From positions 1 through 52,313 of IMG/VR virus record IMGVR_UViG_3300009494_000005: a stretch of 52,313 nt of DNA. One strand, given 5' to 3'. The position numbers and the translations under genes are program-made. The stretch comes from a virus. Positions 1 to 46,167 of this stretch are shown here, piece by piece (position 1 is the first letter of the stretch; each line of letters starts with the position of its first letter). The notes below the pieces were generated by a model, which was not told the origin of the DNA, did no database searches, and worked only from the letters and a program-made list of their open reading frames with translations.

Positions 1-27
1 GCGGGCCCACCAACAGCGGCCGGCTAG
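1..27 (+). CDS. 3' end of a gene homologous to the zinc-finger protein at 41095-41682 (partial)
   Basis: Only the last eight codons and a TAG stop are present. They read AGPPTAAG, matching SGPPTAAG at the end of the complete gene that ends at 41682. The sequence between this stop and the next start is also nearly identical to 41683-41738. This shows that the copy-1 module was preceded by its own late-head genes outside the window. Confidence 0.7.
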   Translation, partial: AGPPTAAG

Positions 28-84
28 AGCGCGGATCGACGTCAATCGCGACCACAGCTAAGGGGCCCCGAGCTCGGAGGGATC

Positions 85-1716
85 ATGCCCTACAGATCAA
101 TGAAGCAAGCCGAGGAGGCAGGAGCTAAGACCGAGCTCGGAGGGGCGAAGCTCAGCCTCGCGCAGATCAACGCGGTCGCGGCCGTGGCCGACCGATTGAA
201 GTCGGAGGATAAGGTCGACTCCCCCTACGCGGTCGCGATCGCGGCCTTCCAGAAGTCGCACAAGATCGAGAACGGAAGATGGATCGAGAAGAAGCCCAAG
301 AAGGTCGAGCTCAGCGCGGCAGAGGAGGATCTCGCCGCTCTGATCTACGCTGACAGGGTCTATGCGGCCAACGAACACGGAGTGATCGAGTTCTCGGAGT
401 TCGAGAACCCGCCCGGGACCCGGACAGTCAAGGACGTGGAGCTCCTCGAGGAAGGCGTTCACGTCGACAAGCATCACAAGGTGCTCGTCGTCGACGAGGC
501 CAAGATTAAGGCGATCCCTGAGATGTTCGATCGCCTCGCGGCTCTCGGATTCCGGCCGCCCGTGCGCCTGACTCACGACCCGGATCACCCGCTCGCCTCG
601 GGCTTCCCGTCCCTCGGATGGCCCACACGCCCGCGGCCGTGGTACGACATCAAGAACGAGAAGTGGAAGCTCACTTCCGACTTCGTCGGTGTCCCGAACG
701 TGTTCGCGGACATCATGGAGGCCGGCGGCTACGATTTTATTAGCTCCGGGCTATATCAGGACGTGAAAGTGGGCGACTACACCGCGCCGTTGGCGATCGA
801 CCACGTCGCCGTGCTCGGTGTTGTTCACCCGGCCATAACGGGCTTGAAGGGGATCACTGGGATCCACAGGCTCTACGAAAACGAGATGGCCGCAAGGGAC
901 GGTGTGACAGTGAGCGCCGCGTATCTGTTCGAGGATGGCGGGCTCAAGCCCGATGGCGAGAAGGAGGGAGGAGCGACAATGCCCGACCAGTTGACGCCGG
1001 AACAGCTTGCATCCTACGGGGTGACGAGCGAGACCGACCTTCGTGCGAAGATCGCGAAGGCCGGGGAGGCAGACAAGATCCAGAGCGATGCCAAGATCGA
1101 GCTCGAGGCCGCGCGGGGTCAGATGCGACTCGCCGCGGCGAACGGATTCATCGCCGCGGCCAAGGAGAAGATCCCACCGGCCCTGCACGACGATTTCCGC
1201 GTGGTGCATATGGGGCTCGCGGAGCACGGGAATGCGATCGAGTTCGCTCGCCCGTCGAAGGACGGCCTCAGTGCTGAGACCGTCAAGAAGGATCCCATGA
1301 CCGCTCTGACGACGATCGTCGGGAAGCTCGGGAAGGCGATCGAGCTACAGGACGAGAACGCGCCGGAGGGCGGGAAGGATCAGGAGCATCTCACGGACGA
1401 GGAGAAGGCCGCGAAGAAGATCGCGGACGATGCCGCGGCCGCGAAGAAGAAGGAGGAGGGCGGCGACGACAAGCCGGAGGAGGGCAAGACTGACGACGTC
1501 GTGGAGCTCGCACGGGGTGGTGTCGCCTCCCGCACGTTGATGGCCGTCGAGCAGAAGAAGCTCAGCCGGATCATCGAGGAGCGCGACGGTGTCGATCGTG
1601 GCACGGCCATGTCGATAGCCGCGGTCGAGCTCGCCCGCGCCGGCTATGGTACGGATGCGTACGTGCCGCCGGAGGGCCTCGAGGAGCCCAAGAAGGAGAA
1701 GGACGACAAGAAGTAG
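85..1716 (+). CDS. Mu gpI-like prohead protease with C-terminal scaffold domain
   Basis: This 543-residue protein is read as a capsid maturation protease joined to a scaffold, as in the Mu gpI family. Residues 1-70 form a charged helical segment (AGAKTELGGAKLSLAQINAV). Residues 110-270 are the protease-like part, with a conserved LTHDPDHPLASGFPSLGW block and an AIDHVAVLGVVHPAI block that resembles the LDHVAL-TNNPAI signature of gpI proteins. Residues 299-543 are rich in Lys, Glu and Ala and predicted helical, as expected of a scaffold. A separate in-frame start at 979 allows this part to be made alone. The gene lies between the late head genes and the decoration and capsid genes. I cannot assign the catalytic residues with certainty. 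Confidence 0.75.
   Translation: MPYRSMKQAEEAGAKTELGGAKLSLAQINAVAAVADRLKSEDKVDSPYAVAIAAFQKSHKIENGRWIEKKPKKVELSAAEEDLAALIYADRVYAANEHGVIEFSEFENPPGTRTVKDVELLEEGVHVDKHHKVLVVDEAKIKAIPEMFDRLAALGFRPPVRLTHDPDHPLASGFPSLGWPTRPRPWYDIKNEKWKLTSDFVGVPNVFADIMEAGGYDFISSGLYQDVKVGDYTAPLAIDHVAVLGVVHPAITGLKGITGIHRLYENEMAARDGVTVSAAYLFEDGGLKPDGEKEGGATMPDQLTPEQLASYGVTSETDLRAKIAKAGEADKIQSDAKIELEAARGQMRLAAANGFIAAAKEKIPPALHDDFRVVHMGLAEHGNAIEFARPSKDGLSAETVKKDPMTALTTIVGKLGKAIELQDENAPEGGKDQEHLTDEEKAAKKIADDAAAAKKKEEGGDDKPEEGKTDDVVELARGGVASRTLMAVEQKKLSRIIEERDGVDRGTAMSIAAVELARAGYGTDAYVPPEGLEEPKKEKDDKK
979..1716 (+). CDS. Nested in-frame scaffold protein
   Basis: An ATG at 979, in frame with the protease gene, is preceded by a very strong ribosome site (AAGGAGGGAGGAGCGACA). 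It would give a 245-residue protein starting MPDQLTPEQLASYGVTSE. The second copy has the same arrangement at 42636, including the ribosome site, although flanking codons differ. Lambda C/Nu3 and similar pairs set a clear precedent: the scaffold is the C-terminal part of the protease gene, translated from an internal start. The product is acidic, Lys/Glu/Ala-rich and largely helical. Confidence 0.75.
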   Translation: MPDQLTPEQLASYGVTSETDLRAKIAKAGEADKIQSDAKIELEAARGQMRLAAANGFIAAAKEKIPPALHDDFRVVHMGLAEHGNAIEFARPSKDGLSAETVKKDPMTALTTIVGKLGKAIELQDENAPEGGKDQEHLTDEEKAAKKIADDAAAAKKKEEGGDDKPEEGKTDDVVELARGGVASRTLMAVEQKKLSRIIEERDGVDRGTAMSIAAVELARAGYGTDAYVPPEGLEEPKKEKDDKK

Positions 1717-1731
1717 TGCTGGCCAAGTCAC

Positions 1732-1749
1732 GGGGGGCCCGGGTCCCCC
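1732..1749 (+). promoter_or_regulatory. GC-rich hairpin between scaffold and decoration genes
   Basis: A run of six G and a matching TCCCCC flank a CCCGGG core, folding into a seven-pair stem with a CCGG loop. It lies 16 bases after the scaffold stop and about 20 bases before the next ribosome site. Copy 2 has a seven-pair stem with a different loop at the same place (43369-43386). There is no U tract, so it may attenuate transcription or define an mRNA end rather than fully terminate. Confidence 0.6.
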
Positions 1750-1782
1750 ACCCACACTTTCTGTCAGAGGAGGTGAACACCA

Positions 1783-2268
1783 ATGGCAGATACCGCATAC
1801 GACGAAGTGTGTCAGCACGGCCAGTTCCGTGAGGACATTCAGTATGCAGTCACGGAGGACGACGCGGTTGTGCTCTATCAGGGCGTCGCGTACGGCGCGA
1901 CCTCGGGTTACATCACGAGCACTACCGTGGCTACGGATGGCAGACTCGCGGGCTTCGCTCAGCAGTCAGTCACCGCGGCCCAGACCGACTATACCGGAGA
2001 TGGTGCGGCCGGCGTGGCGATGCCGATCTTCCGCATCCCGGTCATGATCCACGGCTCCACGCGATTCATGTGTGGTGCGAACACGAGCGTGACCTACGGC
2101 ATGTGGCAGGTGCTCGAGGGCACAGATGGTCGGCTGGTCGACGCCGGCGCGACCTCGAACACGCTCTACGTCACACACGGGATCGCACAGGACGACCCGG
2201 ACGCGGACGGCGAGTGGGGGCACATCATCATCAACCTCAACGTGCCGTACTACTCGGCCACGACATAG
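1783..2268 (+). CDS. Putative capsid decoration (head stabilisation) protein
   Basis: This 161-residue protein starts at an ATG behind an AGAGGAGGTG ribosome site. It sits directly between scaffold and major capsid genes, the usual place of lambda gpD-like or DUF2190-like decoration proteins. The sequence is rich in Gly, Thr and Val with short beta-like segments (GVAYGATSGYITSTT, GSTRFMCGANTSVTYG) and has no membrane or signal segment. The second copy (43421-43906) is very similar. The role is inferred from position, size and composition, not from a recognised signature. Confidence 0.5.
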   Translation: MADTAYDEVCQHGQFREDIQYAVTEDDAVVLYQGVAYGATSGYITSTTVATDGRLAGFAQQSVTAAQTDYTGDGAAGVAMPIFRIPVMIHGSTRFMCGANTSVTYGMWQVLEGTDGRLVDAGATSNTLYVTHGIAQDDPDADGEWGHIIINLNVPYYSATT

Positions 2269-2308
2269 GCCGACTGACCGAACAGATCAGGCAAGAGGAC
2301 TCCGGCTC

Positions 2309-2347
2309 CCCGAGTTCCTCGGGACGGCCTCTGCTTCGCAGAGCGCC
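2309..2347 (+). promoter_or_regulatory. Two tandem hairpins in the major capsid leader
   Basis: Hairpin 1 is CCCGAG-TTC-CTCGGG at 2309-2323. Hairpin 2 is CTCTGC-TTC-GCAGAG at 2329-2343, extended by GGC/GCC across one bulged C (2326-2347). In copy 2, hairpin 1 is unchanged. In hairpin 2 a T-A pair has become C-G, and two outer pairs have become wobble pairs, so the fold is kept although bases differ. Both lie in the 123-base gap between the decoration and capsid genes. They could stabilise or process the capsid mRNA, or bind a regulator. Confidence 0.75.
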
Positions 2348-2391
2348 GGGATCCTGCCTCAACTACGGATGCAGACTACGGAGGGAGGACC

Positions 2392-3348
2392 ATGCCTGCC
2401 CCGACAGAAGTCCAGGCGCAGGACGAGGTTCTGAACAACATAGCCTCGTACTACCACCACGAAGGCACGGTGCATCAGACCATCGCGCCGATCGTGGATG
2501 TGAAGCGGATCACGGGCCGCTACTACGTGTTCGGACGTGAGGAACTTCGCGTCATGAACGACACCCTCGGCCGCCGCTCTCACGCGAACGAGCTCGAATG
2601 GCACACGACCACGTCGATGTACAGGACCGTGGCTCGTGGCTTGCGGACATTCATCGGGACCGAGGACCGCGAGAACGCGGATCCTGTGATCCAGCTTGAG
2701 ACCACAGGGACCGAGAAGATCATTCGGGCTCTCGATCTCGCCGCGGAGGTTCGTTGTGTGGCGGCTGTCTCGGCCGCGATTACGGCGACAAGTGCGACCG
2801 CGGCTGGTACTGCTTGGCAGACCGGCGGGACGACAGGGAAGCCCCTGACGGACATCGCCGCGGCCAAGTTCAACTTCAAGCGGGCATGCGGACGCCCGCC
2901 GAACGCGATTGTGATTCCTGACCAGTGCGTAGCCAAGATGGTCTTGTGCGACGAGTGGCGGGAGCAGTTCACGACCACTGAGGGTGCGGCCAAGACGATT
3001 GGCACGTACTCGGCGCTTCCCCCGCTCATCGACGGCATGACGCCGTTGGTGCCGTCGCAGTTGAAGCTCTCCGGCTCGCCCGGAGTGTCCGACGGCCTCG
3101 GTCCAGGCGGGACTCCCAGTCTCACCTCTGTGTGGGGTGACAACGTGTATCTGCTGTGGGTGAACCCTCGCCCGGCGATCATGGATGCCTCGTTCATGTA
3201 CACCTTCGCCACCACTCGTCAGCGTGTCAGGAGATACGACGACGAGTCCGTGGGCATCGGTGGCGGGACGTACATTCAGGTCGAGAAGCAGGACACCATG
3301 AAAACCGTCAACGTCTACATGGCTCGAGAGATCTCGAACGTCATCTAG
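2392..3348 (+). CDS. Major capsid protein
   Basis: This 318-residue protein follows the protease/scaffold and decoration genes and is read as the HK97-fold major capsid subunit. It opens with VQAQDEVLNNIASYYH, and has a loop-like region rich in charged residues around 55-100 (REELRVMNDTLGRRSHANEL). An Ala/Thr-rich helix follows near residue 125, then a C-terminal domain ending TVNVYMAREISNVI. It has no cysteine-rich, signal or membrane segment. Its start follows a GGAGGGAGGACC ribosome site. Copy 2 encodes the same length with scattered substitutions. Assignment rests on genomic position, length and this architecture. Confidence 0.8.
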   Translation: MPAPTEVQAQDEVLNNIASYYHHEGTVHQTIAPIVDVKRITGRYYVFGREELRVMNDTLGRRSHANELEWHTTTSMYRTVARGLRTFIGTEDRENADPVIQLETTGTEKIIRALDLAAEVRCVAAVSAAITATSATAAGTAWQTGGTTGKPLTDIAAAKFNFKRACGRPPNAIVIPDQCVAKMVLCDEWREQFTTTEGAAKTIGTYSALPPLIDGMTPLVPSQLKLSGSPGVSDGLGPGGTPSLTSVWGDNVYLLWVNPRPAIMDASFMYTFATTRQRVRRYDDESVGIGGGTYIQVEKQDTMKTVNVYMAREISNVI

Positions 3349-3428
3349 GCTGCGGCGGGATGCTAGGGGTGCGTCGAATGGGAGGAAGGGCCCGGACGGC
3401 GCGCCCCCGGCGGCGAAGGAGGTCAAGC

Positions 3429-3812
3429 GTGGCGAAGTCGAAGAAAAAGAAGGCAGCCGCACAGAAGCGGTGCAAGGCGAACCGCAACAGGATCTTCGTC
3501 CATCCACAGGGCGACGTGCTCCAGTGCGAGCAAGGCGTATTCGCTCCTGGACAGTACGTCCCCGTCGAGGATCTCCCGGCCGACATGGTCGGGGACTGGT
3601 TTCAGACGGGCCTTCTGATCGAAGAGCAGATGTACCGGATGTATCACGGGGCTGACTGGAACGCACGACACCCGAAGGATCAAATCAAACCCGGGCAGGG
3701 CGGCGTCGACATTCACCACGTCGTGCCCACGACCGGCGATGAGATCACGGATCCCGGCGGGGCGGCTCCGACGATCGGGGGCGGTGACGGAGCCGCCGAT
3801 CTCACCGATTGA
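3429..3812 (+). CDS. Unknown head-associated protein with GDEITDP C-terminal motif
   Basis: This 127-residue protein starts at GTG behind AAGGAGGTCAAGC. The first 20 residues are strongly basic (AKSKKKKAAAQKRCKANRNR), suggesting nucleic-acid or capsid-interior contact. The middle carries FVHPQGDVLQCEQGVFAPGQ, and then MYRMYHGADWNARHP. The end is acidic and Gly-rich and holds TGDEITDPGGAAPT. Copy 2 (45063-45425) keeps all three parts but has a shorter basic start. A similar GDEITDP tail occurs in the unrelated product at 26353-26640. It could be a head-completion or tail-joining factor; I do not recognise the family. Confidence 0.6.
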   Translation: MAKSKKKKAAAQKRCKANRNRIFVHPQGDVLQCEQGVFAPGQYVPVEDLPADMVGDWFQTGLLIEEQMYRMYHGADWNARHPKDQIKPGQGGVDIHHVVPTTGDEITDPGGAAPTIGGGDGAADLTD

Positions 3813-3822
3813 GAGGCGAATC

Positions 3823-4536
3823 ATGCCGGCATACTGCACCGATGGTCAACTACGGCGAGCGTGGAAAACGCTTCACGAGGACACGGACTACGACGAGCTC
3901 GCGGAGCTCCGCAAGCGTGCTATGGACACGATCGACGCATGGATCGGGACGGTGTTCAACGTCCCGTTCTGTCCGTGGTTGCACGTCAACGCCGTGGATG
4001 GCAACACCCTGACCATCGACCTACAGGACGTGGGCTACCTCAAGGCTGGTGACACGATCATGTTCTATGACAACTCCGAGGAGAAGATGGGGCAGAGCGC
4101 GGGCACGATCAGCACTGTGAGTACCGCGACTATCACGATCTCGGGATTGACGGGAATCGCGGCCGGCGACGAGATCGCCGTCTACTCGGACATCACGGTG
4201 TCGAGTGGACGCACGATCCGCGTCGTCGGCCCTCCGCCGGAGGTCAACGCGAAGGCCGTCGATGTCAGCCGCTACTATGGGCACACCGACCTGAGCTCAC
4301 TCCAGGACGCGACCGATTCGATCGTCAAATCGTATGAATCGGCCGTCGAGTGGGGCGGCCTCCTCCGTGATGGCACGGCAGATCTCACGGGTGCGGATGC
4401 TCAGACCGTCGGATACATGACCACCTACGAGACCGAGCCCGCGATGAACGTCGACCATCCTGTGACGTGGGGCTTCGACGAGAATCATCCTGCCCGTGAC
4501 CAGGACGCGAACACTGATACCGGACTTGATCCGTAG
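3823..4536 (+). CDS. Mu gp36-like (DUF1320-type) head-tail adaptor with inserted beta domain
   Basis: The 237-residue product starts MPAYCTDGQLRRAW, like the opening of Mu gp36/DUF1320 neck proteins. Its C-terminal half carries the matching AVDVSRYYGHTDLSSLQ and YESAVEWGGLLRDGTADL helical parts. Between them, residues about 60-135 form a Thr/Val/Gly-rich insertion (TIMFYDNSEEKMGQ, ITISGLTGIAAGDEIAVYSD) that looks like an added beta domain. The insertion is present in both copies. The likely role is in the neck, joining portal and tail. Family assignment is by sequence resemblance from memory and should be treated as moderate. Confidence 0.6.
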   Translation: MPAYCTDGQLRRAWKTLHEDTDYDELAELRKRAMDTIDAWIGTVFNVPFCPWLHVNAVDGNTLTIDLQDVGYLKAGDTIMFYDNSEEKMGQSAGTISTVSTATITISGLTGIAAGDEIAVYSDITVSSGRTIRVVGPPPEVNAKAVDVSRYYGHTDLSSLQDATDSIVKSYESAVEWGGLLRDGTADLTGADAQTVGYMTTYETEPAMNVDHPVTWGFDENHPARDQDANTDTGLDP

Positions 4537-4544
4537 GAGGCGAC

Positions 4545-5072
4545 GTGCGGAGCTATCAGGCCGGAGCGACCCAACAGGGAGCCGCCTTTGTCATGGACAA
4601 AGGTGATCTCCTCAAGTTCACGGGTCTGCTCAACCAGCTTCGGATCAACGCCATGCATCCCGAGCCGTTCCTCACGCTCGCCGGCGAAGCGGTTCGGATC
4701 GAGACTCTCAAGTCCTTCGAACTCCAGTCTGAGCCCCAACATCGCCGGCCGTGGAAGCGGCTCGCGAAGCCGACCACGGCTCGCCGGCCCAAGGGGAAGC
4801 GCAAGACCACCAAGCGGTACAGCGCGAAGATCCTTCTCGATACCGGCCGCCTCCGTGGCTCTATCACGATCAGGAAAACCATGCTCCCGCCGACGGTCTG
4901 GATCGGGACGAACATCATATACGCACGGACCCATCAGTTCGGGGATCCCGCACGGAACATCGCCGCGCGTGCGTTCCTGCCGACGGGTTGGACGGCGCCT
5001 CTATCTATCCGAACCAAGAGAGCTCTACAGTCGCAGATCAAGAAGGGCGGCGCGGGCCGCCATGTGAGGTGA
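4545..5072 (+). CDS. Virion morphogenesis / tail completion protein (Mu gpG-like)
   Basis: This 175-residue basic protein starts at GTG behind TAGGAGGCGAC. The pattern of a helical N-terminus (MDKGDLLKFTGLLNQL), a basic middle (RRPKGKRKTTKRYSAK), then LLDTGRLRGSI, a VWIGTNIIYARTHQFG segment and a terminal ARAFLPTGW is typical of phage virion morphogenesis proteins of the Mu gpG/P2 gpS type. These complete the neck or the tail end that meets it. The gene lies between the gp36-like neck gene and small tail genes. Copy 2 starts at ATG 46168 with a few extra N-terminal residues. Confidence 0.75.
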   Translation: MRSYQAGATQQGAAFVMDKGDLLKFTGLLNQLRINAMHPEPFLTLAGEAVRIETLKSFELQSEPQHRRPWKRLAKPTTARRPKGKRKTTKRYSAKILLDTGRLRGSITIRKTMLPPTVWIGTNIIYARTHQFGDPARNIAARAFLPTGWTAPLSIRTKRALQSQIKKGGAGRHVR

Positions 5073-5074
5073 CA

Positions 5075-5431
5075 ATGCCTAGTCAAGATATTCTGGAGTG
5101 GCTGGCCGACAACGGTATGACTGAGGTGTTCACGAGCGACGAGGTAGACAACCCGACCTCGGGCCCCGGCGCGGTTCTGTTTCAGTACACCGCGACCGCA
5201 CCGCTCCTGACTCTCCGGTACTCCTTCATCAACGACTCAACCAACGTCGTGATCTACGAGATCCGACTCGACGGTGAGGTCGTGCACAAGCCGATCGCGC
5301 ATCCCAACCTAGTTGAGCCGGTCAACGTCGTGATTCCGGTTGCCGTGGGGCAGACGATCCTCGTCGGGACGGTGACGGACGAGAGCGCGAACGGGACGAG
5401 CCGCGTCGTCGTGGAGTATATCAAGGGTTGA
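5075..5431 (+). CDS. Small beta-rich structural protein, unknown
   Basis: This 118-residue protein starts MPSQDILEWLADNGMTEVF, two bases after the preceding stop. The rest alternates hydrophobic and polar residues (LLTLRYSFINDSTNVVIYEI, VNVVIPVAVGQTILVGTV), suggesting a beta sandwich. Copy 2 has exactly the same length with conservative changes. No signal or membrane segment is visible. Its place between tail completion and appendage genes suggests a minor tail or neck component. I do not recognise a family. Confidence 0.6.
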   Translation: MPSQDILEWLADNGMTEVFTSDEVDNPTSGPGAVLFQYTATAPLLTLRYSFINDSTNVVIYEIRLDGEVVHKPIAHPNLVEPVNVVIPVAVGQTILVGTVTDESANGTSRVVVEYIKG

Positions 5432-5452
5432 TTCCGGCAGGAGGTCGCGGTC

Positions 5453-6136
5453 GTGGCTGAGGACACATTCTATCCGAGTCCGTACGGGTACATAGGCGAC
5501 AGCGGTTCGACCGCCTACGACAACACCGGGACCGCCTCTAAGTGTTACACGCTGGCCAACATCGTAACGGGGAGTGTCGAGCGGGCCTACTTCTCCTTTG
5601 ATACCTCGTCGATTCCGGAAGTTGCGACAATCGTCGATGTGTCGATTCGAGCATACTGCGACTTTCTCTCGTTCTCAGTTGAAATAAACCTGTTAACGAT
5701 CGCGGGCATGGTCTGGTGGGAACACGACGTGATCGGCGCCAGCATCACGACGGGGGACTGGGGTCTTGCGAACTTCGGAGCCTACAAGCTTTGGGGATCT
5801 GGTCAGCCTCCTCCGAGCCTTCCATCCTCAGCGGACATAGATCTGCCGAACGCAAGTGTGAACGTCGATGGTGACAGCGACTACGAGTTCAGAGACGCGA
5901 GTAATTGGACCGACAGCTCTGAGGGTCCTCGACTTGGGTACTACGCGAAGAAACCTATCGGGACTGTGAGGATGTGGCTCACCGTGACGTTTTCGATTCC
6001 CAAAGGACTGTTCAACCGCTGGAACTGGCGGCTTCCCGCTATGCCCGGGTTCTCGAACGTGATCGCGGCCGTCGTCCTCCCCTCGGGCGATCTCAAGGTC
6101 TTGGCCCGGTTCTATCCGCGGCCTCTGGAGGCGTAA
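5453..6136 (+). CDS. Putative virion appendage protein with DNRLRE-like domain; hypervariable between copies
   Basis: The 227-residue product starts at GTG. Residues about 45-75 (RAYFSFDTSSIPEVATIVDV) fit the opening of DNRLRE/CBM96-like carbohydrate-associated domains. The last 45 residues (GLFNRWNWRLPAMPGF to the end) are well conserved in copy 2, as are the first few. The roughly 150 residues between are strongly diverged, far more than neighbouring genes. A conserved virion-anchoring end and a fast-changing body suggest a surface-exposed protein that may touch the host or its glycans. That role is inferred. Confidence 0.55.
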   Translation: MAEDTFYPSPYGYIGDSGSTAYDNTGTASKCYTLANIVTGSVERAYFSFDTSSIPEVATIVDVSIRAYCDFLSFSVEINLLTIAGMVWWEHDVIGASITTGDWGLANFGAYKLWGSGQPPPSLPSSADIDLPNASVNVDGDSDYEFRDASNWTDSSEGPRLGYYAKKPIGTVRMWLTVTFSIPKGLFNRWNWRLPAMPGFSNVIAAVVLPSGDLKVLARFYPRPLEA

Positions 6137-6137
6137 C

Positions 6138-6875
6138 ATGCAGATGGTCAAGCAGAGCGTAGAGCGGAAGATCCCTTGCCTCCTAATCGAGTCCTCCGAT
6201 GGTCAGACGCCGGACACCGGCGTTGCCGCTGGCTCCGTGACGATCAGCTACCGCAAGGAAGCCGCGACATCGTTGACCGCCAAGACCGCAACGGGCAACT
6301 GGACGGAGGTGGGCAAGGGCGTCTACCTGATAACGTGGTCGACGACCGACCTCAACACTGTTGGGCGGTTCGACTTCATCGTGGAGGTGTCGGGCGACAT
6401 CAACTACTACGGGTCGCTCGTGGTCAGCGCGAATCTCCTCGACGACCTTGCGACTGACATCGCCGCGCTCAACGACCTCGACGCGGCCGGCGTGCTCGCG
6501 GCCGTGACCAACGACGACACCAAGTGGGCCGGCGCGCATGTCGACGCGGCGATTTCGACGCGGAGTTCACACAGTGCGGCCGACGTCGTCGCGCTACTGA
6601 ACGATCCGACTGTGGCTGCAATTGTGACCGGGATCTGGACCGAGGCGCAGGCAGGCTACACGACTCCAGGCACGTTCGGTTACTTCCTCGATTTGCAGGT
6701 CTCGGCGGCCGGCGGGGGCGCCGCTCCCACGGTCGCGCAGATCGCGGAGGCGGTCCACGACGTCAAGGTGACATTCAACAAGACCACAGGTGGGCTCGTA
6801 ATCACGATGGCCGACGACATGCCTCTGACCTCTGTCACGATCACTGACACGGCTGGGGAGGTGACGCGCGAATGA
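6138..6875 (+). CDS. Tail-associated protein with conserved N- and C-termini and variable centre
   Basis: The 245-residue protein begins MQMVKQSVERKIPCLLIESS and continues with a beta-rich domain to about residue 100 (VGKGVYLITWSTTDLNTVGR, GDINYYGSLVVSANLLDDLA). This resembles N-terminal domains of phage fibre or baseplate proteins. The last 60 residues (APTVAQIAEAVHDVKVTFNK) are also conserved in copy 2, whereas residues about 110-185 are replaced by a shorter unrelated segment there. It shares a four-base ATGA overlap with the next gene. A tail appendage or fibre-support role is inferred. Confidence 0.5.
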   Translation: MQMVKQSVERKIPCLLIESSDGQTPDTGVAAGSVTISYRKEAATSLTAKTATGNWTEVGKGVYLITWSTTDLNTVGRFDFIVEVSGDINYYGSLVVSANLLDDLATDIAALNDLDAAGVLAAVTNDDTKWAGAHVDAAISTRSSHSAADVVALLNDPTVAAIVTGIWTEAQAGYTTPGTFGYFLDLQVSAAGGGAAPTVAQIAEAVHDVKVTFNKTTGGLVITMADDMPLTSVTITDTAGEVTRE

Positions 6876-7690
6876 GCTTCGATGCCGTAGGGCTCCTGAC
6901 CGACGGGCACGCCTCGGGCTTCAACACGTCGTTTCTCAACTACTGCCCGGTCATGGTCCGTGTGATCGACGAGGCTGGCGCCGCGATCTCCGGCGCGACA
7001 GTCACGATCGGATCCACGGCTCTGACTACGGATGGGAGCGGGCTCATCACTGAGACCGAGTTCGCGGCTGGTGCGTATTCCTTCCTGATTACGGCTCCAG
7101 GGCACCGATCGGTGCTCTCGCAGGTGACGCTCGCCGGCCGACGGGACTGGACAATCCCTCTGAAACCGACGAGCTATCCGGGCACAACGCCCGAGATGAT
7201 GGAGGTGGTCGACGCTCTCAAGGCCGATCTCGACGCGGATCCCACGCTCACCGCTATGGACGGTTGGCAACCGGCCGTGAGGTGCTACGACTCAACGATG
7301 CCGGATCTCGAGGGATCCGGGCTACGCACCGTCTATATCTGCCCCGTCCTCGATGAGCACCGCGGAGGAGCGGATCAAGGTCAGGGACTACGGGCCGACG
7401 GCACCGAAACTCAGATGTTCGGGCTCTACTACCACATCTCTCTCTACCCCTGTGTCACGATGGAGGGTAAGGGCGCTGAGGGCCTCCTGACGGACGACGA
7501 AGGGCTCGAGGCTATGACGACCGCCGTCAAGAATCTCATTCGCTTCAATGACCTCGACGGGCTCGTGGGATGGCTTGAGCGACCGATCGGCGTCCAGAGG
7601 GATGTCGGAGCCGATGAGCATGCAGGGCAATTCTATCACAAGCTCAATCGTGTTATGCTCCGCGCGTTCGTGGGCGAGGACGACACGTAG
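6872..7690 (+). CDS. Ig-like domain protein with possible tail-terminator C-terminal domain
   Basis: In this 272-residue protein, residues about 25-95 form a carboxypeptidase-regulatory/Ig-like beta sandwich (VMVRVIDEAGAAISGATVTI, GLITETEFAAGAYSFLITAP). Residues 110-272 start EMMEVVDALKADLDADPTLT and then carry VYICPVLDE and long strands, broadly like tail terminator or minor tail proteins that sit one gene before the tail tube. It overlaps the preceding gene by ATGA. Copy 2 differs by small indels around residues 145-165. The domain reading is clear for the Ig-like part and tentative for the rest. Confidence 0.5.
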   Translation: MSFDAVGLLTDGHASGFNTSFLNYCPVMVRVIDEAGAAISGATVTIGSTALTTDGSGLITETEFAAGAYSFLITAPGHRSVLSQVTLAGRRDWTIPLKPTSYPGTTPEMMEVVDALKADLDADPTLTAMDGWQPAVRCYDSTMPDLEGSGLRTVYICPVLDEHRGGADQGQGLRADGTETQMFGLYYHISLYPCVTMEGKGAEGLLTDDEGLEAMTTAVKNLIRFNDLDGLVGWLERPIGVQRDVGADEHAGQFYHKLNRVMLRAFVGEDDT

Positions 7691-7698
7691 GAGGACCG

Positions 7699-7875
7699 AT
7701 GCCGACACCGATGCAGTCCATGCACGCTAGGTGGAAACGAGAGCGAGAGGCGGCCGAGGCGGGCAAGGCCCCGGCCACGCGCCGAACACGGCGCACCACG
7801 CCGGCGACGCCGGCGACAGCGGACCCCGGGGCGGCTACCGAGCCGGACCCGACACGAGAGGAGGACGATAGCTAG
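7699..7875 (+). CDS. Small charged protein, unknown
   Basis: A 58-residue ORF starts at ATG behind GTAGGAGGACCG and ends with TAG immediately before the tail tube ATG. It opens PTPMQSMHARWKREREAAEA, passes through a Thr/Pro/Ala-rich stretch and ends acidic (TREEDDS). Copy 2 has a 57-residue equivalent (49245-49418) that keeps the SMHARWK start and EEDDS end with a diverged middle. That pattern supports real coding. Function is unknown; translational coupling to the tail tube gene is likely. Confidence 0.55.
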   Translation: MPTPMQSMHARWKREREAAEAGKAPATRRTRRTTPATPATADPGAATEPDPTREEDDS

Positions 7876-8391
7876 ATGAGCGTCACAAAGGACAACATCT
7901 GCAACGGCCCTAGTACCTGCTCGCTGAACATCGCGGCAGCCGGCCTTGTTGATGTTGGGGCCATCGCACCCGGAGGCGTGACGATCACGCGCGAGCCGGA
8001 GATCCTCTTGATTCACCCGGAGCAGACCATGGGTCCCATCAAGGGGTATCCGACGAGCGAGTCGTATGTGATCGCGTTCACGATCTGGGAAATGACGACG
8101 CGCAACGTCGACCTCATGGTGTTCGGGGGCGACGGGAGCTACGACGCGACGCCGGCGGCGGCTGACGACTTTGGAGGCACCGACGTGTGCACCGAGGCGG
8201 TTCTCACGGTTTACGGAACCTGCCCCGGCCAGCTTCAGCGGGCTATCACCTTCAATCAGGCGATCCCCGTAGAGCCCGGCGACTGGATACAGTCCCGGGA
8301 AGCGGAGCACAACATCGGCGCGAAGTGGCGATCTCTCTGCGATCCGGACGACAACACGATCGGGTCAATGGAGGACACCGCGCCCGCGTAG
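7876..8391 (+). CDS. Major tail tube protein (putative)
   Basis: This 171-residue protein lies just before the frameshifted chaperone genes and tape measure gene, the standard place of the tail tube subunit. It has beta-rich segments (VDVGAIAPGGVTITREPEIL, ESYVIAFTIWEMTTRNVDLM) of the kind found in siphophage tube proteins. It is the most conserved gene between the two copies; by eye about 96% of bases match over the first 235, with the same length. The size is close to that of other tube proteins. Function is assigned by context. Confidence 0.65.
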   Translation: MSVTKDNICNGPSTCSLNIAAAGLVDVGAIAPGGVTITREPEILLIHPEQTMGPIKGYPTSESYVIAFTIWEMTTRNVDLMVFGGDGSYDATPAAADDFGGTDVCTEAVLTVYGTCPGQLQRAITFNQAIPVEPGDWIQSREAEHNIGAKWRSLCDPDDNTIGSMEDTAPA

Positions 8392-8407
8392 CCTCCTCCT
8401 AAAACCA

Positions 8408-8427
8408 CGGCCGAAGAAGAAAGGCCG
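8408..8427 (+). promoter_or_regulatory. Short hairpin overlapping a ribosome site
   Basis: CGGCC (8408-8412) pairs with GGCCG (8423-8427) around a purine loop GAAGAAGAAA. The 3' arm and loop end form the only purine-rich ribosome site before ATG 8431. The stem, loop and spacing are identical at 49950-49969. It may hold down translation of the next gene relative to the tail tube. Confidence 0.45.
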
Positions 8428-8430
8428 ACA

Positions 8431-9036
8431 ATGGCACTGTGGCGACAAAAACAAGGCTATTGGTGCTGCTCGGATGTGAACCTCGTCGCCGCGATGATGG
8501 TCGAAAACTACGTCATCAAGGACGGCGTGATCGACGACACGGACGCGCTACCCCCGGTAGACCTCGCGTTCGCGTACATCGAACTCGTGCCGAGGAAGAT
8601 CCCGAAGAAAGGGCGACGAGGTTCGTCTGGCAAGGACCGGCTAGTCTACACCGGGCCCAACGATGTCCGACGGCGGGAACTCCGCGAGTGGAAGCCGGTC
8701 ATCATGTTTGCGCTCGCACCGTTCGAGCACTCACACCGACTAGCCAACGCGAAGAAAGATATGTGGTTCAATGGCACACTGTTCAGTCCTCCGGTCTACG
8801 GCGTCCAGCATCACGCACTGATGCGGATAGTCGAGCAGATCAGGGAGGAGTTCGAGCGAAAAACCGGCCGGCCGACGAGTCTCAAGAACAAGGCGTTCGC
8901 GGTGAACCTCATCGACGGCGTCGCGCGGTTGGCCACCGAGAGATCAGAACTCTCGGCAGAAGCGAAGGAGATCCCGAGTGTCGCAGTTAGAGGAGAAGAA
9001 GCCCGAATCGGGGCCCGAGGACTCATCCACAAGTGA
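8431..9036 (+). CDS. Conserved tail-region protein, unknown
   Basis: The 201-residue protein starts MALWRQKQGYWCCSDVNLVA. It has a basic middle (VPRKIPKKGRRGSSGKDRLV), an EWKPVIMFALAP strand and a helical, charged C-terminus. The last 59 bases overlap the start of the next gene in another frame. Copy 2 is highly similar. Position between the tail tube and tail chaperone genes suggests a tail assembly or minor tail role. I do not recognise the family. Confidence 0.6.
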   Translation: MALWRQKQGYWCCSDVNLVAAMMVENYVIKDGVIDDTDALPPVDLAFAYIELVPRKIPKKGRRGSSGKDRLVYTGPNDVRRRELREWKPVIMFALAPFEHSHRLANAKKDMWFNGTLFSPPVYGVQHHALMRIVEQIREEFERKTGRPTSLKNKAFAVNLIDGVARLATERSELSAEAKEIPSVAVRGEEARIGARGLIHK

Positions 9037-9802
9037 GACGAAAAAGGACGGAGCGAAGGCGCTCCTCCGTCGCGTTGTAGTTGAAGGCGCTCCCGAGAAG
9101 CCGGCCGTGGGGGCCGCGGCTGACGCCCTCACGGTCTCGCTCGACGTCGATACGCCGCCCGAGGTGGCCGATGAGGGCCCGAAGAAGCCCAAGAAGAAAA
9201 CGGCGGCAGAGAAGCGCAAGGAGCGCATCGAGGCTGAGATCGAGAAGATCATCGAGGCAGGGACCTACAAGGCGAAGTATCTCCCCGATCCCCTCCTGAT
9301 CAAGCCGATGGGTCCCTTCGTTGAGGTGGTCTCGACAGCGTTCGCCGCACTCATGGAGAAGGCTGAGACCCCGCCGATCGACCATTTCCAGACTCAGGTC
9401 AGAGATGAGCACCCGGACTGGCACCCCGAACGTGTCGCCGGCGTTGCCGTGCAACGGTACGTCGGGGAGCGCGGGAGGTTGGCGGTGATCGCCGCGGCTA
9501 AGGTGTCGGCCGAGTCGAACCTGATGTATGAGCTCGCCGGACTCGCGGTCGGACAGGATCGCGCATGGGCCGAGGAGCATCTTCTTCCTGGTGAGGCTAT
9601 GCGGATCACCCGTGCGGCTATCATCATCGGTGAGGTACGCGATTTCTTGGGGGAATCCCTCTCGATCCTCGGAACAGAAGTGGTCGAGGAGGACGAGGAG
9701 GAGGACGAGGCTACAGCGTCTACGCCCGCACCGTCGGGCGCAGGATCCGCGGAGCCGTCGTCCGACTCTACGGCCTCGGGCCCCGAGGATTCGACGAGCT
9801 AG
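8978..9802 (+). CDS. Tail assembly chaperone, short form (lambda gpG-like)
   Basis: The 274-residue product starts at GTG behind GAAGGAG, inside the end of the previous gene. A charged, disordered N-terminus of about 70 residues leads into KPKKKTAAEKRKERIEAEIE and a compact helical domain (DEHPDWHPERVAGVAVQRYV). The end is a low-complexity acidic/Ser-rich tail. A small acidic protein followed by an overlapping -1 frame and then the tape measure gene is the G/GT arrangement of siphophages. These proteins bind the tape measure protein during tail assembly and are absent from the virion. Confidence 0.75.
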   Translation: MSQLEEKKPESGPEDSSTSETKKDGAKALLRRVVVEGAPEKPAVGAAADALTVSLDVDTPPEVADEGPKKPKKKTAAEKRKERIEAEIEKIIEAGTYKAKYLPDPLLIKPMGPFVEVVSTAFAALMEKAETPPIDHFQTQVRDEHPDWHPERVAGVAVQRYVGERGRLAVIAAAKVSAESNLMYELAGLAVGQDRAWAEEHLLPGEAMRITRAAIIIGEVRDFLGESLSILGTEVVEEDEEEDEATASTPAPSGAGSAEPSSDSTASGPEDSTS

Positions 9803-10092
9803 AAGCCCGCGACGCGATCGAGGGCTATCGAACCGCTCAGGCTGTCACGAAGGAGGACATATTCCACGTCGGAGTCGCCGCCGCGTGCGGGACTACCGGC
9901 AAGATCGCAGAGCTTGCGGCCTACCTGATGGGGGACGATCCGAGCAGGATCAACGAACCGATCGAGGCCAAGGGCGAGACACCGGAACCCTTCCTCCGGC
10001 GCATACTCGAAACGCCCGGGGAGCACGTCGAGGTGGCACTAACACCCGACGGCGAGTACGACCTCGCGGCCTTCTTCGACGACGAGGAATAG
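8978..10092 (+). CDS. Tail assembly chaperone, -1 frameshift fusion (gpGT-like)
   Basis: The -1 frame is open from 9634, just after a TGA at 9631, to a TAG at 10090. It has no convincing start of its own. The sequence GGGGGAA at 9649-9655, read G GGG GAA in the chaperone frame, lies at the very beginning of this open stretch and in the longest run of identical bases near it between copies. A shift there gives about 371 residues. The -1 product has conserved protein before the chaperone stop (RGAVVRLYGLG, then LEARD in both copies) and a conserved end (PGEHVEVA, DLAAFFDDEE). Confidence 0.7.
9649..9655 (+). other. Candidate -1 slippery site
   Basis: GGGGGAA in phase G GGG GAA. The first codon can re-pair perfectly after a -1 slip; the second would re-pair imperfectly, so the exact slip codon is uncertain. 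Sequence from 9646 onward is identical to copy 2 for about 33 bases, more than expected from flanking divergence. Confidence 0.6.
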
Positions 10093-10096
10093 CCAA

Positions 10097-12529
10097 GTGC
10101 CAGTCGTGGGTTTCGGCGGTGAGATGGCCTTGCGAACGGCCGTCACACTCGGCAACAAGCAGTTTCTAAAGAGCATCGATCAGATGGAGCGGCGGATGGG
10201 CGGTTTTACTTCGTTCATGCGCCGCTCCTCTCGCACGTTCGCTGCTGGGTCTCTCGCCATAGGCGCCGGCCTCGGTCTTGCCGTGAAGGCAGCCGGGGAC
10301 TTCGAGCAGTCGATGGCGAACATGGACTCTGTAGCCAACACGACCGGCGCGGAGTTCGCCCGGTTGAGGCAGCTCGCATTCGACATGAGTACGACGACGA
10401 TGCGATCTGCGACCGAAGCGGCCGGGGCGATGTACGAGCTTGCGTCGGCTGGCCAACGGGCTGAACAGATCTTCTCGACGCTCCCGTCCGTGATCAAGCT
10501 CGCAGACGCGACGCAGTACGACCTCTCCCAAACGACCTCAACTGTCGTCGCCACAATGAACGCCTTTGGTTTGGAAGCGTCCGACACCGAACGTATCATC
10601 AACGTCATGGCGGCCTCGATCGGTGGCTCGATGGCAAAGATGGACAAGCTGTCGGCGTCGTTCGCCTACATCGGCCCCGTGGCGCGTTCCGCTGGACTGA
10701 GCATAGAGGAAACGTCCGCCGCCCTGATGGTCCTCTACAATGCTGGCCTTGATGGGTCTGCGGCCGGCACATCGCTCCGTCGAATCCTTGCATCACTACT
10801 CAAGCCGACCGAGAGCCTCACGAAGCGCATCGAGGATCTCGGGCTCGAAATGTCTGACATCGACCCTCGCGTGAATTCGATGAGCGAGATCATGCAGACG
10901 TTGAAGGACTCCGGGCTCGATGCGACTGCCGCCTTCGAGGACTTCGGACTTCGTGGAGCTCCGGCTCTGCTTGCCCTCCTTGCGGCGGGCGACGGACTCG
11001 ACGAGTTCGAGACCATGATCACCGGCACGGATCGCGCCGCCGAAATGCTCGCGCGGCAGATGGACGCTGTAGGCGCGCAAGCGACCATCCTTAAGAACAC
11101 GCTGATCACGCTCGGCATTAAGATCGGGGAGAAGCTCCTGCCGATGGTTCGGGACGTGACTGGCTGGCTCCAACGGCTACTGGAGAAGTTCGACGGGCTG
11201 AGCGATTCGAGTTTCGAGCTCATAGCAAAGATAGCGCTTCTGGCCGGCGGGCTGTTGGGTGTCCTGTCGATCGTTGGGCGAATGGCGCCACTCCTCGGAG
11301 CGGCGGCCGGGCCGATAGGGATTCTGGCGATCGCGGTCGGTGCGCTCGCGACGGCCTACGTCCTCGCCGACAAGACCATGTCCGATTACTACGACGCACT
11401 TCGGGACGGCAACGCGGCCGAGGCTGAGGCGCTACGCAACAAGACCGAGTGGGCCGCCATGATGAAGGCCCTGTTCTCGCCCGAGTACTGGGAGGCAGTC
11501 GGCTCTGACATTTTCATCTTCTTCCAGCGGCTTGGTGCGGGAATGTCAGCGTTCTTCGCGGCACTCAAGAACGACGCCAGGCTGATAGGCGAGGCATTCG
11601 ATCCCAAGAACTGGATCGACCCTGACTGGAGGCGGCAGTTTGCCGAGAGCTTCCAGCTAGGGGACGTCGGACAGTTGATGTCGGACGCATGGGAGAACGC
11701 GCCTGTTGATCTGCCGGAGGGTGCGACCTCCTGGACGGCTGATTTCTATGACCGTATGTTCACCCCTCCCGCGGATGCCGCCGAGAAGATCGTCGCTGGC
11801 ATCGCCGAGGTCACGGCGGTTGCCGCTGAAGCCTTGACGGGGGGCGGGCTCGCGGTCCCGATGCCGAACCTGCTTGGTGAGATTGCCGATGTCACGGACG
11901 AGACCTTGACGGGAGTAGAGGAGCGGTTCCGTGCGATGCGCTCCCGCATCGAGGAAGAAATGCAGTTCGCGGGCGCCGCACTGACCGCATTCATGGTCGA
12001 CATCGGGCAGAGTCTCGAGGAGAACATCAAGAAGGAGAAGTCGTTCACGCTCGCGATGGTCAAGACCGTCGGGAAGGCGTATGCTGATCTCGTCGAGAAG
12101 TTCGCTATGAAGGCGGTGACCAACACTCTCATGGCGCAAGCCGAGACGGTCGGCATCCTATCGATGCAAGGCTTGTTCGACTGGTCCGCGTGGGCGAAGA
12201 TCGGGCCCGCGATTGCCAAGGGCGCTGCCACGATCGCGCTCATCAAGGCGATCAAGGGCCGACTCGGGTTCCACACAGGTGGGCCGAACTACCAGGAGGG
12301 ATTCAAGTTCCTCAAGTCGAACGAGCTCGTCATGGACCGGAGTACCGTGCAGCGCGGGGGCTATGGAAGAGCAACGCTCGACGCCGCCGGTGAGGTTGGC
12401 ATGGGAACAAACGTCAGCGTCGTCGTCAACATCGCCCACGCGACAATGACGAACCCGGAGGTGGACGCCCGGGCTATGGCGCAGATCATAGGTGATGAGG
12501 TAGAAGCTCTGTTGAACGGAGGAGCGTAA
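10097..12529 (+). CDS. Tape measure protein
   Basis: The 810-residue protein starts at GTG and is the longest gene after the chaperone pair. Residues about 70-330 fit the phage tail tape measure core (DFEQSMANMDSVANTTGAEF, then ELASAGQRAEQIFSTLPSV and SIEETSAALMVLYNAGLDGS). A long hydrophobic stretch around residues 375-425 (LIAKIALLAGGLLGVLSIVG, PIGILAIAVGALATAYVLAD) could insert in the host membrane during DNA entry. The C-terminus has helical parts and an FHTGGPNYQEG segment. At about 810 residues the tail would be fairly short, near 120 nm if the usual 0.15 nm per residue holds. Confidence 0.9.
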   Translation: MPVVGFGGEMALRTAVTLGNKQFLKSIDQMERRMGGFTSFMRRSSRTFAAGSLAIGAGLGLAVKAAGDFEQSMANMDSVANTTGAEFARLRQLAFDMSTTTMRSATEAAGAMYELASAGQRAEQIFSTLPSVIKLADATQYDLSQTTSTVVATMNAFGLEASDTERIINVMAASIGGSMAKMDKLSASFAYIGPVARSAGLSIEETSAALMVLYNAGLDGSAAGTSLRRILASLLKPTESLTKRIEDLGLEMSDIDPRVNSMSEIMQTLKDSGLDATAAFEDFGLRGAPALLALLAAGDGLDEFETMITGTDRAAEMLARQMDAVGAQATILKNTLITLGIKIGEKLLPMVRDVTGWLQRLLEKFDGLSDSSFELIAKIALLAGGLLGVLSIVGRMAPLLGAAAGPIGILAIAVGALATAYVLADKTMSDYYDALRDGNAAEAEALRNKTEWAAMMKALFSPEYWEAVGSDIFIFFQRLGAGMSAFFAALKNDARLIGEAFDPKNWIDPDWRRQFAESFQLGDVGQLMSDAWENAPVDLPEGATSWTADFYDRMFTPPADAAEKIVAGIAEVTAVAAEALTGGGLAVPMPNLLGEIADVTDETLTGVEERFRAMRSRIEEEMQFAGAALTAFMVDIGQSLEENIKKEKSFTLAMVKTVGKAYADLVEKFAMKAVTNTLMAQAETVGILSMQGLFDWSAWAKIGPAIAKGAATIALIKAIKGRLGFHTGGPNYQEGFKFLKSNELVMDRSTVQRGGYGRATLDAAGEVGMGTNVSVVVNIAHATMTNPEVDARAMAQIIGDEVEALLNGGA

Positions 12530-18275: not shown

Positions 18276-18332
18276 AAATGACCACCACGTAACACGGGAG
18301 TTGGAATCGGGCTTGCACCCTAGAGGAATAGA
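18276..18332 (+). promoter_or_regulatory. Sigma-54-like promoter element A
   Basis: TGGAATC-N4-TTGCA at 18302-18317 places GG (18303-18304) exactly ten bases from GC (18315-18316), the fixed geometry of RpoN -24/-12 promoters. The surrounding block, ATGACC then GTAACAC upstream and CCTAGAGG downstream, recurs at 20361, 21596 and, in part, 29036. It lies about 50 bases before the gene at 18370. Confidence 0.55.
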
Positions 18333-20368: not shown

Positions 20369-20425
20369 CCCTCCGTAACACGACTTCTGGAATCGCCCTT
20401 GCACTACTAGGAGCCAGAACGAGGC
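20361..20425 (+). promoter_or_regulatory. Sigma-54-like promoter element B
   Basis: TGGAATC-N4-TTGCA at 20388-20403 keeps GG (20389-20390) and GC (20401-20402) ten bases apart. The upstream part GTAAATGACCCTCCGTAACAC is almost identical to element C, and the downstream leader shares GGCAAGGGAGCAGGACC with it. It precedes the gene at 20456 by about 50 bases. Confidence 0.55.
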
Positions 20426-21602: not shown

Positions 21603-21660
21603 CCCTCTGTAACACCCGTTTTGGAATCGGCCTTGCACCCTAGAGGGGCAGAAGGACGGA
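21596..21660 (+). promoter_or_regulatory. Sigma-54-like promoter element C
   Basis: TGGAATC-N4-TTGCA at 21622-21637 keeps GG (21623-21624) and GC (21635-21636) ten bases apart. The block shares GTAAATGACCCTC and GTAACAC with element B, and CCTAGAGG and CAGAAGGA with elements A and D. It lies about 65 bases before the gene at 21701. Confidence 0.55.
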
Positions 21661-29035: not shown

Positions 29036-29085
29036 TAATAGACGGAGTTGGAATCAGACTTGCACTACAGAGGGGCAGAAGGGAG
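29036..29085 (+). promoter_or_regulatory. Sigma-54-like promoter element D
   Basis: TGGAATC-N4-TTGCA at 29049-29064 keeps GG (29050-29051) and GC (29062-29063) ten bases apart. GGAGTTGGAATC is shared with element A, and AGAGGGGCAGAAGG with element C. It stands about 28 bases before ATG 29092 and would drive the cargo region. Confidence 0.55.
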
Positions 29086-33812: not shown

Positions 33813-34360
33813 TGGGCAAGCTGACCATGGAATACCGGAGGCTCGACGACGTCGTGCCGGCCGACGAGAACCCGAAGGGGCACAAGATCGGCGCCATCAT
33901 CGAGTCGATCAAGCGGCGCGGGTTCGCTGACGGACTCGTGGAGGACGGGCGCACAGGGAAGCTTGTCGGGGGGCACGGCCGCCTCCAAGCTCTCCAGCAG
34001 ATGCGGGACGCGCACGAGCCGGAACCGGAGGGGATCATGGTGAGCGACGCCGGGTGGTTCGTGCCTGTGCAGGTGGGATGGCGGTCGAAGAACGACGCCG
34101 ACGCCCGCGCGATGCTCGTCGCGCTCAACAAGATCGTCGAGCTCGGGGGATGGGACGAGGTCATACTCGGGCCGTTCCTGCGGGGGATCAACGACGACGG
34201 CGAGCTCATAGGAACCGGGTTCAACGAGCACGACCTCAAGGGATTCGGTGACGCCGGGCCTGACGGTGGGTTCGGAGGAGAGCCCGGCGGTGGAGGGCCC
34301 CGCGAGGGCGTGCACCGCACCTGTCCGAAATGCGGCTTCCAGTGGACGGAGGACGCTTGA
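33812..34360 (+). CDS. ParB/sulfiredoxin-fold (ParB-like nuclease domain) protein with zinc motif
   Basis: In this 182-residue protein, residues 7-65 match the ParB-N/sulfiredoxin fold: YRRLDDVVPADENPKGH, then IIESIKRRGFADGLVED, and the hallmark GGHGRLQAL (53-61). The C-terminus ends in a Gly-rich linker and CPKCGFQW with a preceding Cys-lacking stretch, perhaps half of a zinc site. Phage ParB-like proteins act as nucleases, NTP-using enzymes or DNA-modification partners. It overlaps the radical-SAM gene by TGATG, suggesting joint action. Confidence 0.65.
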   Translation: MGKLTMEYRRLDDVVPADENPKGHKIGAIIESIKRRGFADGLVEDGRTGKLVGGHGRLQALQQMRDAHEPEPEGIMVSDAGWFVPVQVGWRSKNDADARAMLVALNKIVELGGWDEVILGPFLRGINDDGELIGTGFNEHDLKGFGDAGPDGGFGGEPGGGGPREGVHRTCPKCGFQWTEDA

Positions 34361-35787
34361 TGCAGAAGATCGGATGGTTGATGTATGAGGGCCCATACAA
34401 GAACTCGCGCGGCACGTCGGCCTCCTTCCTCAGGCAAGGGAACATCGGCGCCCTCGTGGTGTTCGACATCCTCCGGCGCGCGGGCTTCGAGTGTGTCCCG
34501 GTCGTTCCTCGAGACGCCCACCAGTTCGACGTCGTCGCGTTCTCCCTGACGAGCTCGTTCGACTACTACAACTTCCTCCGGGCTGTCGGGAAGCTCCCGG
34601 AGTGGCAGCCGGGACGGCGCAAGTTCAAGGTGATCGCCGGCGGGGCCGGCCTCAACAACGCGCTCGCCCTCCGGAATTACGTCGACTACGCCGCCTACGG
34701 CCGGGCCGAGGTGTTCATCGCGAATCTCGTTGCCGACGCGATCGCCGGCCGTCCGAGCAAGAGCCCGCACGTCCTCAACCTCCCCGAGATCCGGCCCGTG
34801 ACCTACGCTCAGGTTGACGAGCTCTACGAGCACGAGGTTGACGTGCCGGCGGTACACAGCGGGAAGTGGTGCGAGCACAACATCGGATGCCACCGGTGTT
34901 GCTACTTCTGCTTCTACCGCTACTCCCGGAAGTTCGTCAGCGAGCGCGAGACCTACAAGTACTCAGGAGCGGACGGACCGGGGGGAGGAATGCAGATCGA
35001 GCTCACCATGCTCGACGTGATCGAGAAGTGGCACGGTGAGTGGCCCCGCCTCCTGCCGGCGGCCGACGGATTCTCAGAGCGGCTCCGGTTCGCGTTCAAC
35101 AAGAAGATCAGCCGCGACATGATCGCGGAGGTCGGCCGGCACCTTGCCGACGTGTGGACCCTCACCCGAGGGCACGAGCCCGAGAAGCGGCTCCGGTGCA
35201 TGGTCTACAACATCGCCAACCTGCCGACCGAGACTGACGAGGACCGGGCCGAACTGCCCGCGGATCTTGTCAACGCCGCACCTGACGGCCGCGTGACCTA
35301 CGTTCTACACTCGACCCCGTTCCGTCCCTCGCCGCTCACGCCCTCCGCGTACCTCCCCGTTGCACTGTTCCCCGCTCACCGCCTCCAGCCGGGCGAGAGC
35401 AAGCTGCTCGGGAAGGAAGGGAACACGCAGGTGTTCGTGTCAGGGACTCAGGAATCCCCGATCTCGCAACTGATGAGCCTCATCATCGAGCGTGCCACCG
35501 ACCCCGATCTGACCGACAAGATCCTCGGGTCGATGCTGTTCGGCAAGGACTACCGCCGGCAGAAAACGTGGCGCGACAAGCTCCGCGCCCTGTCGGGATG
35601 GTTCGACCTCGACGGCTACCTCCGCAGTTATAGCCTTGACGAGCCCCTGCCGACGTGGTATCTCGGCTCGTACACGAAGCCGGCGACGGTTCGCCGGCAA
35701 GCCAAGCGACTCAAGGGTGCGCTCGGCATACTGGAGCCCGGGGAGGGTGACGACGTTGACGACGCTACACCTGCCAATCATCCGTAG
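34360..35787 (+). CDS. Radical SAM protein with B12-binding-like N-terminal domain
   Basis: In this 485-residue protein, Cys177-x3-Cys181-x2-Cys184 (GCHRCCYFCFYR) is the CX3CX2C signature that binds the 4Fe-4S cluster and SAM. Two extra Cys (171 and 180) flank it. Residues 25-130 look like a Rossmann domain (DVVAFSLTSSFDYYNFLRAV, FKVIAGGAGLNNALALRNYV), the place of the cobalamin-binding domain in B12-dependent radical SAM methylases, but the DxHxxG motif is not evident. Residues 230-400 would form the barrel. It may carry out a difficult C-H chemistry on a glycan, nucleic acid or peptide. The gene overlaps the ParB-like gene. Confidence 0.7.
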   Translation: MQKIGWLMYEGPYKNSRGTSASFLRQGNIGALVVFDILRRAGFECVPVVPRDAHQFDVVAFSLTSSFDYYNFLRAVGKLPEWQPGRRKFKVIAGGAGLNNALALRNYVDYAAYGRAEVFIANLVADAIAGRPSKSPHVLNLPEIRPVTYAQVDELYEHEVDVPAVHSGKWCEHNIGCHRCCYFCFYRYSRKFVSERETYKYSGADGPGGGMQIELTMLDVIEKWHGEWPRLLPAADGFSERLRFAFNKKISRDMIAEVGRHLADVWTLTRGHEPEKRLRCMVYNIANLPTETDEDRAELPADLVNAAPDGRVTYVLHSTPFRPSPLTPSAYLPVALFPAHRLQPGESKLLGKEGNTQVFVSGTQESPISQLMSLIIERATDPDLTDKILGSMLFGKDYRRQKTWRDKLRALSGWFDLDGYLRSYSLDEPLPTWYLGSYTKPATVRRQAKRLKGALGILEPGEGDDVDDATPANHP

Positions 35788-41682: not shown

Positions 41683-41738
41683 AGCGCGGATCGACGTCAA
41701 TCGCGACCACAGCGAAGGGCCCCGAGCCCGGAGGAGCC

Positions 41739-43358: not shown

Positions 43359-43368
43359 CGGCAACCTA

Positions 43369-43386: not shown

Positions 43387-43420
43387 GCACACTCTCTGCT
43401 TGAGAGGAGGTGTCAGGCAA

Positions 43421-43906: not shown

Positions 43907-43946
43907 GCCGAGCCAAGGATCACGAACGGCTAGAGAACTCTGGCTC

Positions 43947-43985
43947 CCCGAGTTCCTCGGGACGGTCCCTGCTTCGCAGGGCGTC
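43947..43985 (+). promoter_or_regulatory. Tandem hairpins in the major capsid leader, copy 2
   Basis: CCCGAG-TTC-CTCGGG at 43947-43961 is unchanged from copy 1. CCCTGC-TTC-GCAGGG at 43967-43981 carries a compensatory C-G pair where copy 1 has T-A, and the outer stem 43964-43985 keeps pairing through wobble pairs. Confidence 0.75.
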
Positions 43986-44029
43986 AGGTTCCTGCCTCGA
44001 CTACGGAATTACATCACGGAGGGAGGACC

Positions 44030-45425: not shown

Positions 45426-45435
45426 GAGGCGAATC

Positions 45436-46158: not shown

Positions 46159-46167
46159 GGATGCGTC

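Follow-up and report, generated by a model that had tools for sequence, protein, structure and literature searches.

The DNA analyzed here is the IMG/VR virus record IMGVR_UViG_3300009494_000005, taken at its full length of 52,313 bases and called the window below. Its gene set is that of a Mu-type head cluster: the portal gene carries the Mu F domain, a head protease is present, and the major head protein gave a profile match to PHROG 1005. The gene ahead of the major capsid gene is a putative head decoration gene, whose product gave no family match of its own in the family searches. In a sequence comparison, positions 1–10,783 and 41,659–52,313 were diverged versions of one head–tail module (76–83% identical), and the record thus amounts to roughly one genome of 41.65 kb, to which 10.6 kb of another, related version is added. 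The duplication at the contig ends is probably two related phages joined in assembly, which may have switched strains, or else a tandem arrangement. The sequence-only reading had treated the capsid gene leader as present in a copy 1 and a copy 2. Both are there (Table 1), but because the contig ends are diverged versions of one module, the two leaders are orthologues from two related phages and not a repeat within one leader.

An IMG/VR scan with the capsid, portal, terminase, and decoration proteins and two DNA patterns recovered a sole close relative, IMGVR_UViG_3300009494_000008 (G001; 43,239 bases), which is colinear with the window and has a single capsid gene; the next relatives were about 28% identical. 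A relaxed hairpin pattern hit 23 loci, and a relative of the capsid protein was encoded only on G001. Searches of species genomes and of plasmids found no relative, and the phage collection gave no match at 1e-5 and weak matches only at relaxed E values. The lineage is little known, and a cultured member was not found in the collections searched.

Outside the head module, four sigma-54-type (−24/−12) promoter-like sites (TGGAATCNNNCTTGCA) lie on the plus strand of the window at 18302–18317, 20388–20403, 21622–21637, and 29049–29064, against 0.05 expected, and G001 carries sites of the form TGGCACG-N4-TTGCA on its minus strand at 40955, 40476, and 31817. Each site is followed within about 90 nt by a ribosome site and an ATG. 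Three of the four sites in the window lie inside diverged dispersed repeats; the ends of G001 (1–144, 1128–1242, 40395–40976, and 42867–43239) hold at least six such repeats of about 100 nt, two of them with sigma-54-like sites. Sigma-54 control of phage non-structural genes would be notable, if true. An ORF at 34330–35787 (485 aa) gave weak matches, below the curated cut-offs, to a radical SAM N-terminal domain and a B12-binding domain, which is unusual for a phage.

From the decoration stop to the capsid start, the three sequences (copy 1, copy 2, and G001) all have a gap of 123 nt. The equivalent gap had a median of 14.5 nt in 70 distant relatives, so that 123 nt is unusually long for the family, and the distant relatives mostly have no long gap there. 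The tandem TTC-loop hairpins described from the letters alone are indeed present in both copies, CCCGAG-TTC-CTCGGG being followed by CYCTGC-TTC-GCAGRG as the consensus of the second; the G001 hairpins are those of copy 1 without change. They are located about 48–83 nt upstream of the capsid start. In shuffled sequence, tandem perfect hairpins turned up at a rate of only about 0.7 per 52 kb, so that chance is unlikely to have placed such a pair within a single 123-nt gap; we infer a probability of about 0.002. A covariance-model search recovered the leader from no sequence other than the window, where it occurs once per module, and G001; a weak match in two distant relatives (L061/L063; E 0.013) fell upstream of their 69-nt pre-capsid gap. 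A leader peptide was considered and rejected, as a start codon common to the copies was absent by eye.

Table 1. Features of the decoration–capsid region in the window.
Feature	Position	Strand	Remarks
Gap before decoration gene	1732..1775	+	GGGGGG/CCCCC hairpin and stem over ribosome site; z −3.4
Putative head decoration gene	1783..2268	+	161 aa; name based on synteny with DUF2190 genes of related phages
Intercistronic leader (copy 1), putative decoration gene to major capsid gene	2269..2391	+	123 nt
Alternative closing helix CCGGC/GCCGG	2302-2306 pairing 2345-2349 (span 2302..2349)	+	gives three-way junction; CTGGC/GTCAG in copy 2, second double change
Hairpin 1	2309..2323	+	CCCGAG-TTC-CTCGGG; invariant in 3/3 sequences
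Outer stem GGC/GCC of the sequence-only reading	2326-2328 pairing 2345-2347 (span 2326..2347)	+	in copy 2 weak, with G.U pairs, and followed by a broken pair
Hairpin 2	2329..2343	+	CTCTGC-TTC-GCAGAG; one double change (2330/2342) in copy 2
Possible ribosome-site occluding helix	2349-2360 (GGATCCTGCCTC) pairing 2381-2391 (GAGGGAGGACC)	+	probability ≥0.94 in 3/3 sequences
Major capsid gene	2392..3348	+	318 aa; PHROG 1005 (major head protein), E 1.6e-30
Hairpin directly 3′ of capsid gene	3366..3407	+	GGGGTGCGTC/GGCGCGCCCC; z −3.1; 45003-45044 in copy 2
Orthologous leader (copy 2), upstream of second capsid gene	43907..44029	+	
Copy 2 hairpin 1	43947-43961		
Copy 2 hairpin 2	43967-43981		
Second capsid gene, behind copy 2 leader	44030-44986		

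Compensatory changes had been put forward as direct evidence for selection on the structure. The T-A to C-G double change in hairpin 2 is real (2330/2342 versus 43968/43980), and so is the change of the outer stem from GGC/GCC to GGU/GUC, but in copy 2 the outer stem is not the fold predicted: it contains two G.U pairs, the next pair changes from C-G to C.A, and its probability in the ensemble is 0.0. Hairpin 1 does not vary in any sequence and is uninformative on covariation. Since the copies are orthologous and the G001 hairpins are identical to those of copy 1, the claim comes down to a single comparison of the only two distinct leader sequences in the collections. When gapless windows of the module were tested in the same way, 71 of 297 (24%) had two or more double-compensated pairs, as did 5% of random core mutants. 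The covariation is therefore not significant and is too weak to prove selection on shape; when two G+C-rich phage sequences are compared, double changes often arise by chance and should not be taken as proof of RNA structure.

Joint stability is better evidence for structure than covariation. A consensus-fold scan of the two sequences covered the 5.4-kb head module in 297 gapless 70-nt windows, among which the leader had the lowest consensus energy (−31.9; next, −27.1) with a z score of −4.35, although a few coding windows had similar z scores. Against coding controls (mean −0.97, SD 1.08), the z score of the leader was −4.0. The core also evolves four times more slowly than fourfold sites, with differences between copies 1 and 2 at 9 of 76 core sites versus 112 of 229 fourfold sites (p 2.5e-9). 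A conserved RNA structure adjoining the capsid gene, as proposed from the sequence, is thus upheld on these grounds. Copy 1 and G001 differ at only 2 of 123 leader positions (p 9e-13), but this conservation was set aside as main evidence because these two sequences are likewise free of differences in parts of the capsid coding sequence. Identity between these two shifts along the module, with difference-free stretches, and that of the leader may come partly from recombination or mosaicism. No difference-free tract was present between copies 1 and 2, and the core is conserved nonetheless.

The leader is predicted to have several rival folds. When the core was folded alone, copy 2 and the consensus preferred a three-way junction closed by the alternative helix, which adds the second double change, breaks no pairs, and uses the same 3′ strand as the outer stem. 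In the fold of the whole leader, the junction was absent from the ensemble, with a probability of about zero. There, hairpin 2 had a probability of 1.0 in copy 1 and 0.48 in copy 2 (register counted), and hairpin 1 one of 0.10–0.35 in competition with other pairings; hairpin 1 and the junction were outcompeted by pairings that include the helix over the ribosome site.

The gaps on either side are structured as well, so that hairpins occupy three gaps in and around the decoration–capsid pair. Upstream of the decoration gene, the G5/C5 hairpin is retained despite sequence divergence between the copies. The hairpin directly after the capsid gene has a 10-bp stem that keeps its pairing in copy 2 through exchanges of G.U to G-C and A-U. 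Since it folds far better on the plus (coding) strand (−28.4) than on the minus strand (−12.6), the folding energies point to a hairpin acting as RNA. The strand preference of the leader is weak (−41.6 on the plus versus −38.2 on the minus strand). Of the two forms envisaged in the sequence-only reading, RNA is favored and cruciform DNA is less likely, in view of the G.U pairs used and the strand specificity of the capsid 3′ hairpin. The gap before the protease is unstructured (z 0.5). In a set of 66 distant relatives, the sequence immediately behind the capsid stop is enriched in strong hairpins (z below −2 in 12% versus 1%; rank test p 0.023), and similar strong hairpins were seen in L045, L064, L102, L108, L037, and L049. 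Because the neighboring gaps are structured and post-stop hairpins are enriched in relatives, the structured gaps of this region form a pattern of which the leader is one part.

Here, we propose, with a probability of about 0.5, that the leader and the neighboring hairpins tune the decoration–capsid part of a polycistronic late mRNA through stability, processing, and ribosome access. The decoration and capsid genes presumably share one transcript and are probably the most expressed ones. The leader would be a cis-acting structured segment of this mRNA and, together with the hairpins upstream of the decoration gene and downstream of the capsid gene, would delimit the two cistrons. The stems most likely act post-transcriptionally, by holding back nucleases or guiding mRNA processing around both cistrons and by shaping ribosome access to the capsid start; each of the two abundant shell proteins would then be made at its own level. 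The leader has a conserved stem in an intercistronic gap, as is characteristic of intercistronic stability or processing hairpins. If confirmed, this would show how a Mu-type head operon sets its decoration-to-capsid ratio at the RNA level.

A translational switch is a tentative alternative that we consider unlikely. The 3′ part of the leader (GGATCCTGCCTC) would hide the capsid ribosome site, and pairing of this strand with the upstream junction, or the binding of a phage protein, would free it. The occluding helix is highly probable in each of the three sequences, the outer part of the three-way junction competes with it, a comparable stem covers the ribosome site of the decoration gene, and T4 genes e and soc offer a precedent (PMC3014915); but the occlusion of the ribosome site did not exceed that in composition-matched shuffled leaders (0.38–0.40; 0.14–0.23 in a second run), and the junction is nearly absent from the full leader. 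The more elaborate version, in which the junction and the occluding helix compete for 2349–2360 as two states and the choice falls to a phage protein, for instance the capsid or decoration protein, with shell-protein synthesis thereby limiting itself, is very improbable.

It is improbable that the gap is simply a conserved boundary, a recombination joint between mosaic head genes whose folding is incidental to G+C richness: the genomes are mosaic, as the shifting identity between copy 1 and G001 illustrates, but the core is conserved between copies 1 and 2, which share no difference-free tract, and the hairpins of the pre-decoration gap persist in diverged sequence. Stable G+C-rich stems in an intercistronic gap could also attenuate or terminate transcription on the way from the decoration gene to the capsid gene, and some distant relatives carry a hairpin with a T-run after the capsid gene (L037). 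This is quite improbable here, since neither hairpin is followed by a T-run (the sequence after 2343 is CGCCGGGATCC), a terminator scan found none at this place, and ending transcription ahead of the most needed gene would be odd. That a G+C-rich intercistronic sequence folds well by chance, its fold having no role, agrees with double changes at chance level and with single-sequence folding only mildly above shuffles (z −2.1 and −1.2 for the two copies). It is very improbable given the top consensus stability among the 297 windows, the conserved core, and a gap unusually long for the family. Tuning of the decoration–capsid mRNA is the reading we prefer.

No Rfam family reached the gathering score in the window or in 20 relatives, and none matched the region at a relaxed E value; a riboswitch or other known RNA was rejected for want of such a match. 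The Mu-gpT-DE RNA motif is a structured RNA located downstream of Mu gpT-like capsid genes. The leader resembles it as a structured RNA adjoining a Mu-type capsid gene and differs in lying upstream and in having no Rfam match. The motif is named in PMC7657543. In T4 (PMC3014915), intramolecular hairpins likewise lie at or near the ribosome sites of structural or late genes, and at least the gene 25 structure is conserved among close relatives only, which is a further likeness. Unlike the leader, the T4 structures cover or shorten the start region, several cases having been tested by experiment, whereas the main hairpins of the leader lie well upstream of the start and its occlusion is not above chance. 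In the T4 e and soc type, a late promoter lies within the leader and removes the inhibitory strand; a sigma-70-like site was not found in the leader, and the late promoters of this phage may be of another type. The ESAS of Cluster K mycobacteriophages (PMC3203893) are 17-bp repeats of unknown function; each genome has many of them, set next to a 13-bp start-associated motif. Like the leader, they are inverted repeats just upstream of translation starts and are conserved between related phages; in contrast to their many copies, the covariance model finds the leader element once in each module, and there ahead of the capsid gene alone. Compared with the open-licence literature, the leader is by position and build best classed as a phage intercistronic or leader RNA structure, akin to the initiation-region structures of T4 and the ESAS of Cluster K.
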